Origin: Lineus longissimus
Lineage: Eukaryota; Nemertea; Pilidiophora; Heteronemertea; Lineidae
DNA length: 64,000 nt
Direction: 5' to 3'
Assembly (NCBI RefSeq): GCF_910592395.1
Contig: NC_088318.1
Location: forward strand, 11,780,349 to 11,844,348
The notes below the pieces were generated by a model. It made no database searches and was not told the origin of the DNA. It was given only the letters and a program-made list of their open reading frames with translations. Made by a program: the position numbers and the translations under genes. Below, one piece after another: positions 20,001 to 21,909 of the stretch (positions are counted from its first letter, which is position 1; the number at the start of each line of letters is the position of its first letter).

Positions 20001-21909
20001 AGTAGCTTGCATGGACTCTGTCGGCCATGTCTTTCTTCAATGATTCATTCAGTATTCTACTCTCCTCTTTGCTCCAATTCCTATCCTAATGCGTTTTGCA
20101 AAACACTGAATTCACCTCATAATGATTTCTGAAGTGAGATATTCTCATATGCTCATGAAGATGGGCATTATCGAAGATGTCTTTAATCGCGCCCACGTCG
20201 CACCAGTTAAGATCGTAGTCAGCATCGCTACAGGGTTAGAAAAGACAGGAGGGAAGAGGTTAGAGCGTGCAGTTAGATATTACAGGGATGCACATCATTT
20301 ACGACTACCACCTAGACTTCAACATAGAGAGTGAATTACAGTCGTTAAATGACAATGTCAATTCAACTGAACTGAAGAACATTCTCACATTGATAAACTA
20401 TGTGTATCTGCACAACAATGTTTTTAATTCCTGGTTGAACCTGGGCTTGGAATACTTGCACGGTGAGATAAGAACACTTCAAGTCAAGTTATGGCACAAT
20501 AATTAGAAGCAATGAGTTATAGGCAGCTTGTGCATACAATAGAGACAACCACTACATTCTCTACTTTTTAGGTTTTACTAAAGGCCCTTAAAGGTCTACT
20601 CGGTTCATTAAAAAAATTAAAATTGAACTCGAATTTGAAAATTTGAAGATTGTGTAAATACTCACTGAATAAAAAATTTGTAGAGAGATATACATGATAT
20701 AGGTATACGAATTGCGTACCCTTATTAAATTGTGAAAAATGTCACCCAATATAATTGATATTAGTGTGGCACATTCACACAACCAACACCACCAAAGACG
20801 TGAATAAAAAGCCGAAAAGAGACCTCATAGTGATTCCGGAAGTGACAAATTTTCATGTGTTCTTGAAAATATGATCGGTCATAGTTTTCTCTCAGCCATT
20901 CTCGATCGCACCAGAAGAAGTCCCACGTTTGGTCACCACCTTCTTCTCTGTTAGTAATAAAATGAACAAATAAAAACATTTCATTACTTTTGTAAGGAAA
21001 ACTGGTTATTTACCATCCTGTCAGAACTCCAAAATATACCAAATCATCCAGACAAAAATTTACTAAATATTACAATAATTGCAACACTAGCAAGCAAAAT
21101 ATGGATGCATAATAAAAAGCAAATTCAAATATCTAAGCTAGTGTAGGGAGGAATAGCAGCAAGTTGCAGGCAAGCAAAGCAAATCATATGACTTTCTATA
21201 GGGCCACCTTCAAATTAATGGCCACCCTACCTTGTGTTGCACACTGGCAAAACTTCTTGAATATCAAGGGTGCCACCCTACCTTGGATAAGCCCTGTGGA
21301 GAACTCTTACTCTGGGTAAGCCACAGGTGACAAAAAAACTCTAAATTATGAAAAGAAGTTCAAAATTGATAAAATCCATGGCATACCCAGAGACTTCTTG
21401 CCATCCTCTGTGCCTCAGAACATCAAGAATTGTATTCTGCAGTGAACACTTAAACCAGATAGCACGATCTCTGCAAAGAAAAAAGATTACATTCTGATTT
21501 AACAAGACAGTAACAGTAACACTCATTTCAGGGAAGATCAGTGGCATGGCTAGAGCACTGGGCTCATGATCAGGAGACTGTTGGTTCGACCCTTTGAGAG
21601 ATCACTGCTTTTTCGTCTTGGTGTCCTTGAGCTAGACACTTACTGCACCGTAAATTGCCTTGTTCTTCGAATGAGACTGAGGTTCCTTGCGCCAGGTGCC
21701 TATGCCAGGGCAAGCAAACAACCACAACAAGTGAGAAACATGAGTCCAACCATAAAACTAATTTGATAGATCATTTTTTATACTTGCATTTGAGGCTAGA
21801 TCACAAGAAGCAAGATTTAGTACCAAAAAGTGATTTATACTGATTGAGTTGATCTTCTCTTAGTCTTAGCTTACCCAATGCCCTTCTGACGCTGTGTTGT
21901 CCGCAGCAT
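17001..21909 (-). CDS. TTLL9: Tubulin polyglutamylase-like protein TTLL9
   Basis: Member of the tubulin-tyrosine-ligase-like ATP-grasp family, which adds glutamates to axonemal tubulin tails; TTLL9 acts in cilia and sperm flagella. Exons: 21909-21875, 21470-21387, 20947-20824 (or 20227-20116), 19883-19629, 19381-19250, 19157-19070, 18634-18513, 18328-18195, 17930-17817, 17434-17310, 17071-17001; 1284 nt, 427 residues, close to human (439). Seen: [19 protein letters not shown] near the N terminus, HFRNHYE then [13 protein letters not shown], the ATP-binding [55 protein letters not shown], and the metal-binding [11 protein letters not shown]. The C terminus ([11 protein letters not shown]) matches TTLL9 rather than TTLL1 or TTLL4. 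Start: ATG at 21909 is the first Met in an exon (21921-21875) that has an acceptor upstream, so a 5' non-coding exon is expected. Head-to-head with MORN1. Confidence 0.93.
20116..20227 (-). other. TTLL9: TTLL9 alternative exon 3b, homologous to 3a
   Basis: 112-nt exon with acceptor ...CTGTAG and donor GAG|GTGAAT, 596 bp downstream of exon 3a in transcription order. It encodes [16 protein letters not shown] then [13 protein letters not shown], plainly homologous to exon 3a with a shared C-terminal block and a diverged middle. It starts in phase 2 (GG|C GAT) and ends in phase 0 like 3a, so either fits between exons 2 and 4. Splicing both in series would read CGA TGC TGA, an immediate stop, so the pair behaves as mutually exclusive exons. 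Confidence 0.8.
20824..20947 (-). other. TTLL9: TTLL9 alternative exon 3a
   Basis: 124-nt exon with acceptor ...AACAG at 20948 and donor GAG|GTCTCT. It encodes [16 protein letters not shown] and [13 protein letters not shown], close to the human TTLL9 segment WDFYWCDVSWLRENFD. It begins in phase 2 (completing GG|A) and ends in phase 0. This is the canonical copy of a duplicated exon pair. Confidence 0.9.
21541..21730 (+). repeat. tRNA-derived SINE
   Basis: tRNA-like head with A box (tggctagagcac, about 21547) and B box (ggttcgaccc, 21583-21592), followed by a body ending in tgccagggcaagcaaac. The tgccagggcaag end block recurs near 44362 and, inverted, near 24147-24165, so a dispersed family is present. 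Lies in TTLL9 intron 1. Confidence 0.65.

Follow-up and report, generated by a model that had tools for sequence, protein, structure and literature searches.

Why does the TTLL9 gene of a nemertean contain its third exon twice, and does each copy serve a protein of its own? The question is raised by a 64,000-nucleotide stretch of the Lineus longissimus genome (contig NC_088318.1, positions 11,780,349 to 11,844,348 of the forward strand), hereafter called the window, in which the TTLL9 gene lies on the minus strand with two divergent copies of exon 3, designated 3a and 3b. Judging from their reading frames, splice sites and conservation, we consider it very likely that 3a and 3b form an old mutually exclusive exon pair in a nemertean gene for the TTLL9 polyglutamylase.

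The rebuilt gene consists of a start-codon exon and 11 further exons reaching position 17001, with exon 3 in two copies (Table 1). Gene and species are named through protein identity: the splice form with 3b encodes 433 residues, every letter of which is the same as in the public record P0001, entitled "probable tubulin polyglutamylase TTLL9 isoform X2 [Lineus longissimus]". The splice form with 3a comprises 437 codons and a single terminal stop. The TTL domain (PF03133) was found by Pfam with E values of 1.8e-83 and 7.1e-84, covering profile positions 8–282 and 7–282 of 292, and the closest matches along the window protein, among those listed (the best 120 of 342 and the best 120 of 248), are named TTLL9 records. 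By these sequence matches, the window protein is a TTLL9 polyglutamylase, for which tubulin glutamylation is predicted.

Both copies of exon 3 are preceded by AG and followed by GT, are entered in phase 2 and left in phase 0, and have lengths equal to a multiple of three plus one. Serial use of 3a and 3b yields a protein ending in HYERC with an immediate stop, which closes this option. Skipping both ends just as abruptly after QEVSG, a point that had been absent from the first-pass annotation. Only the single choice of either 3a or 3b therefore makes a protein. The first-pass annotation had located both exons correctly on the minus strand, with the right phases and with the stop upon serial use, and its view of a duplicated TTLL9 exon pair with enforced exclusivity holds; the public gene prediction uses 3b. 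The locus thus shows homologous neighbouring exons with the same phases, of which both or neither give non-productive transcripts, and the well-formed pair is confirmed at the sequence level. The intron between 3a and 3b measures 596 nucleotides (nt), too long for steric exclusion of the kind that a short intron causes, and crowding of the splicing machinery is an unlikely cause. The reading frame combined with decay of the wrong transcripts would suffice for exclusive proteins, as described for exons Ab and 3 of U2AF1 in the part of PMC5224494 available to us.

The divergence between the two copies points to considerable age. In tblastn searches of the window, 3a finds 3b with an E value of 4e-11 and 3b finds 3a with 5e-12, and the searches gave no third copy of exon 3 within these 64 kb, the next matches having E values of 1.3 (3a) and 0.21 (3b). 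The encoded segments share 46–47% identity over 38 residues, with four extra residues in 3a. Among the 38 aligned codons, eight are identical, ten differ synonymously and 20 are replaced. By the NG86 method, the nonsynonymous distance is 0.40, and the synonymous distance has no finite value, being too large to estimate. Over the last 13 codons, a stretch chosen post hoc, synonymous changes account for five of the seven altered codons (p 0.013 against an expected share of one quarter). We compared both exons with 69 relatives, picked by hand from the 186 fetched proteins minus P0001, with fishes and other vertebrates thinned out. Exon 3a keeps all 14 conserved columns of the segment, and 3b keeps the seven invariant ones and six of the seven others conserved in at least 95% of the relatives; the remaining one is a tryptophan, kept in 67 of the 69 and replaced by alanine in 3b. 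The intact frame, the conserved columns and the inestimable synonymous distance suggest that 3b is an old coding duplicate.

Exon 3 of TTLL9 occurs in two types among the relatives, the R type (WCDRE; 27 of 69) and the V type (42 of 69). R-type rows comprise 21 molluscs and six proteins without an organism name. We sorted the R type by the pattern WC[DEN]RE, so that R and E are definitional and the V type is the remainder. All 27 R-type rows also have N at the sixth and Y at the seventh residue past the R, while N or Y occurs singly in 11 and 2 of the 42 V-type rows and the two together in none. A first listing of exon 3 covered 170 of 183 proteins, and the other 13 are 11 of V type, one of R type (P0129) and P0155, whose segment is unreadable. 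In the four R-type columns, 3a reads R, E, N and Y, and 3b reads V, G, I and F. The contrast between the middle segments of the two exons, drawn in the first-pass annotation, was given with the right letters, but 3a proves to be of the molluscan R type and not the plain family form. Mean identity of 3b amounts to 19.8 of 35 columns for the V type against 17.0 of 35 for the R type, and 3b differs from every V-type row at three positions.

A second TTLL9 protein of L. longissimus, P0077, is of V type and shares 75.9% identity with the window gene after exon 3. It resides on another chromosome, a contig of 25,598,605 bases, while P0001 lies on one of 19,191,461 bases; the former fits chromosome 4, given as 25.60 Mb in the part of the genome note at hand (PMC8593623). 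Snails likewise have TTLL9 proteins of both types, P0094 and P0135 in Babylonia and P0090 and P0143 in Nucella, and these differ over their full length (71.5% and 69.7% identity after exon 3, respectively). As a separate observation, P0002 from Polypterus senegalus (685 residues) contains two TTLL9 units in tandem, either neighbouring genes joined by the prediction or a true fusion.

In a tree of the 35 exon columns, the R type and 3a form a single branch (98/95) with 3b outside. Exon 3b stands beside a rotifer sequence (99/82), a placement to which we give no weight because its end branch measures 0.88 over only 35 columns. The gene tree calculated without exon 3 contains 45 rows (60 picked, with 15 long branches or near copies dropped) and unites 21 of its 22 R-type rows in one branch (97/85), which adjoins the V-type rows of snails (87/90). 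Outside this branch stand the R-type P0123 and the window gene, the latter grouped with P0077 and P0084 (87/94, not starred). A constraint that unites the R-type rows and the window gene in a single clade comes at a cost of 17.6 log units and is not rejected by the approximately unbiased (AU) test (p 0.0696). Exon history and gene history may thus differ. Such a difference is expected if an old pair of exons was later divided between genes; an old duplication of the gene, combined with poor resolution of the tree, would look the same. Because 3b is without any of the R-type marks, it is probably no recent copy of 3a, and we lean towards its origin in a duplication that either predates the R type or took place outside it.

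Three more specific origins can be weighed, of which the first two are compatible with a mutually exclusive pair and the third presupposes one. Exon 3 might have been duplicated in tandem within the nemerteans, with the V-like letters of 3b arising by reversal or chance, which we regard as possible, if somewhat unlikely. Tandem duplication is the usual route to such pairs (see also the portion of PMC5224494 consulted), and with 35 residues neither joining 3a with 3b (AU p 0.064) nor holding 3b with all R-type rows (p 0.134) is rejected. The first of these costs 13.4 log units, however, the branch of R type and 3a leaves out 3b, and the two exons differ in all four R-type columns, of which N and Y alone carry the point. 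A rather doubtful second origin is exon shuffling or conversion from the V-type gene P0077 in place of tandem copying of 3a. The 3b segment is 62.9% identical to that of P0077 over 35 columns, well above its identity to 3a; 3b, P0077 and P0084 share FDN, where 38 of the 42 V-type rows have H; and the two genes are neighbours in the tree without exon 3. Yet 3a is equally near to P0077 (62.5%), FDN or YDN is present in P0015, P0017, P0158 and P0186 too, and 3a and 3b are in direct order, the arrangement expected of a tandem copy. Grouping 3b with P0077 and P0084 carries a penalty of 7.1 log units (p 0.179, not rejected), and in the first gene tree (LG+G4, 56 of 60 rows) the neighbours of the window gene were three unnamed R-type rows (support 32). 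Less likely still is an early spiralian TTLL9 that already possessed mutually exclusive R and V exons 3. Nemerteans would have retained both in one gene (3a, and 3b in strongly altered form), snails would have distributed them over two copies of the gene, and, among the rows examined, bivalves would have retained R and annelids V. If true, splicing in one phylum and separate genes in another would serve the same choice of protein, and two lasting needs in cilia or sperm would be indicated.

A rival to the exclusive pair itself supposes that one exon, 3b or perhaps 3a, is unused, a dying duplicate whose frame happens to be intact, so that the gene makes a single TTLL9 protein. Several observations agree with it and weigh against two functional exons. 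The 3a donor pairs most weakly with U1 of all donors in the gene (-4.2), the U12-like one after exon 6 excepted, and its weakness could reflect decay of 3a instead of regulation. Besides having lost the tryptophan, 3b carries A, I and H at three positions in which these residues are absent from all 69 relatives, a pattern that loss of constraint could produce likewise. The 3b motifs GAIK, IKDIF, FDNAH and LHEHMR occur only in P0001 among the 186 fetched proteins, and nothing like 3b was found in the other 185; these protein sets merge alternative isoforms at 90% clustering, which limits what this absence means. In a search of fragments, none of the three matching candidates was 3b-like. P0001 is a gene prediction, and the fetched proteins contain no record of an isoform with 3a, although a 90% cluster would hide one: the two forms agree in 413 of 433 aligned residues, and the P0001 cluster has n=3. 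Finally, most of the exon-3 segment has a predicted local distance difference test score (pLDDT) below 50 in the models behind any functional reading. Against a dying duplicate stand the 38-residue frame and the AG and GT, intact on both copies despite the inestimable synonymous distance, the mostly synonymous changes in the tail, and the 14 and 13 of 14 conserved columns kept in 3a and 3b. Exon 3b is the one used in the public isoform, whose label X2 implies that there is a further one. We therefore hold a dying duplicate to be improbable, more so than any of the three origins above. The comparisons favour 3a and 3b both being working exons, the odd residues of 3b fitting looser constraint as well. 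Chance similarity or misreading of the two exons is excluded by the tblastn E values, the frames and the splice sites.

For the mutually exclusive pair, the splice signals suggest how the choice might be made. The 3b donor matches seven of nine consensus bases with a U1 pairing energy of -7.0, and the 3a donor matches five of nine, as does that of exon 2. Pyrimidines occupy 16 of the 20 nt before the 3b acceptor and 14 of 20 before that of 3a. The choice would be made when the shared donor of exon 2 is spliced, and wrong products would be cleared by nonsense-mediated decay. With its better donor and slightly more pyrimidines, 3b would be the easier choice; 3a, with a poor donor, would need an activator or might gain from the order of transcription. 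An inverted repeat covers the exon 2 donor (Table 1), whose downstream pairing energy of -23.1 was equalled in one of 500 shuffles, the lowest count among 24 splice sites; the test was run after the repeat had been spotted and is borderline after allowing for 24 tests. Pairing with the first intron reaches -24.5 (0 of 500 shuffles as low), with the second intron it is ordinary (330 of 500), and with the third it is weak (42 of 500). A 131-nt fold has a z of -2.0 (equalled or bettered by 5 of 200 shuffles), and its minimum-energy structure gives the exon 2 donor another partner. The pairing tests showed no selector beside either 3a or 3b. Slowed, regulated splicing by pairing at the exon 2 donor is a lead only.

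At the protein level, the swap would keep the W-C strand as well as the HFRNHYE end, which joins the catalytic core, and would replace the helix between them. With strand and end kept, contacts of the N-domain with a delivery partner such as FAP234, or with the microtubule, would more probably be altered than catalysis. An altered choice of tubulin or partner, or a difference between cilia types, as suggested in the first-pass annotation, is a guess that none of the results supports. Structure models of the 3b form (mean pLDDT 51.7) and of P0123 as an R-type stand-in for 3a (48.5) were too poor for comparing the segment.

Table 1. Features of the TTLL9 locus, in window positions (a slash marks the exon end in donor sequences)
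Feature	Position	Strand	Remarks
Start-codon exon (MAKNTK)	22223..22240	-	agrees with the P0001 N-terminus
Exon 1	21875..21921	-	
Exon 2	21387..21470	-	upstream partner common to 3a and 3b; ends 2 bases into a codon (phase 2)
Inverted-repeat arm over exon 2 donor	21379..21392	-	lead only
Partner arm in exon 2-3a intron	21310..21323	-	13 of 14 bases complementary; lead only
Exon 3a	20824..20947	-	R type, 124 nt; weak donor GAG/GTCTCT
Exon 3b	20116..20227	-	112 nt; donor GAG/GTGAAT; in public isoform X2
Exon 4	19629..19883	-	downstream partner common to 3a and 3b (LTRKN...), phase 0; Pfam TTL PF03133
Exon 5	19250..19381	-	
Exon 6	19070..19157	-	followed by U12-like donor GTATCCTT
Exon 7	18513..18634	-	
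Exon 8	18195..18328	-	
Exon 9	17817..17930	-	
Exon 10	17310..17434	-	
Exon 11	17001..17071	-	includes stop codon

The intron after exon 6 (19069-18635, minus strand) is presumably of U12 type, from its donor GTATCCTT and the TTCCTTAAC near its acceptor. This intron is possibly old, because TTLL9 is included in a table of vertebrate twintron genes, in the section of PMC3564746 that we saw. Elsewhere in the window, the next gene on the same strand (15900-12500) resembles what we take to be the Integrator subunit INTS8, and one of its exons compared with Pfam gave no family. Repeats comprise a tandem array at 35564-35896 (82-base unit, four copies, 94% matches), some 20 units of (GAC)n at 9118-9180 and a 301-base repeat in about two copies at 8207-9002.

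Mutually exclusive exons are well known as a class. The first-pass annotation had called such a switch undescribed for TTLL9, which agrees with our literature search: among titles and the starts of abstracts, best matches only, we found none described in TTLL9 or another tubulin glutamylase. Papers combining "TTLL9" with "mutually exclusive", as far as their retrieved text goes, concern classes of mis-spliced exons in human cells or protein binding, neither of which fits, and a word search of PMC9741552 for "TTLL" gave no match. Within this literature, the pair appears new for gene and phylum; its wider interest lies in the split between R and V exons.

A close parallel is the vertebrate U2AF1 pair. 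In the part of PMC5224494 consulted, exons Ab and 3 are homologous tandem exons, as are 3a and 3b, of which both or neither lead to a stop, and the copies differ in their pyrimidine tracts, again as in TTLL9. The stops lead to decay in U2AF1, where decay is only presumed for TTLL9. The U2AF1 exons differ by seven residues, compared with 20 of 38 plus the four extra ones between 3a and 3b. U2AF1 is a different gene in a different phylum, and the TTLL9 pair is known here from sequence alone. In insect docking/selector systems, a pairing mechanism named in the same partly seen source (PMC5224494), as possibly in TTLL9, an inverted repeat at a shared upstream donor could bias the choice; unlike there, the TTLL9 repeat covers the donor itself and pairs within the first intron. 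The TTLL9 proteins of vertebrates and Chlamydomonas (tpg1) belong to the same family as the window protein over the full length, and TTLL9 is described as an elongating polyglutamylase of cilia and one subunit of a complex in the passages available from PMC7970040. They differ in that, apart from P0001, no exon of the 3b kind occurs in the 186 fetched proteins, none of which is named as coming from Chlamydomonas. As the swap affects a single segment of the N-domain in an enzyme of cilia, 3a and 3b would offer a natural isoform pair to probe the function of that segment. The gastropod R/V gene pair is alike in that 3a is of its R type and 3b is nearer to V in mean identity. The difference is one of arrangement: Babylonia and Nucella have two proteins, whereas L. 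longissimus has two exons of one gene. The two exon types, which meet here as an R-type and an R-less exon within a single gene and are spread over two genes in snails, would provide a compact test of splicing and gene duplication as substitutes for each other.
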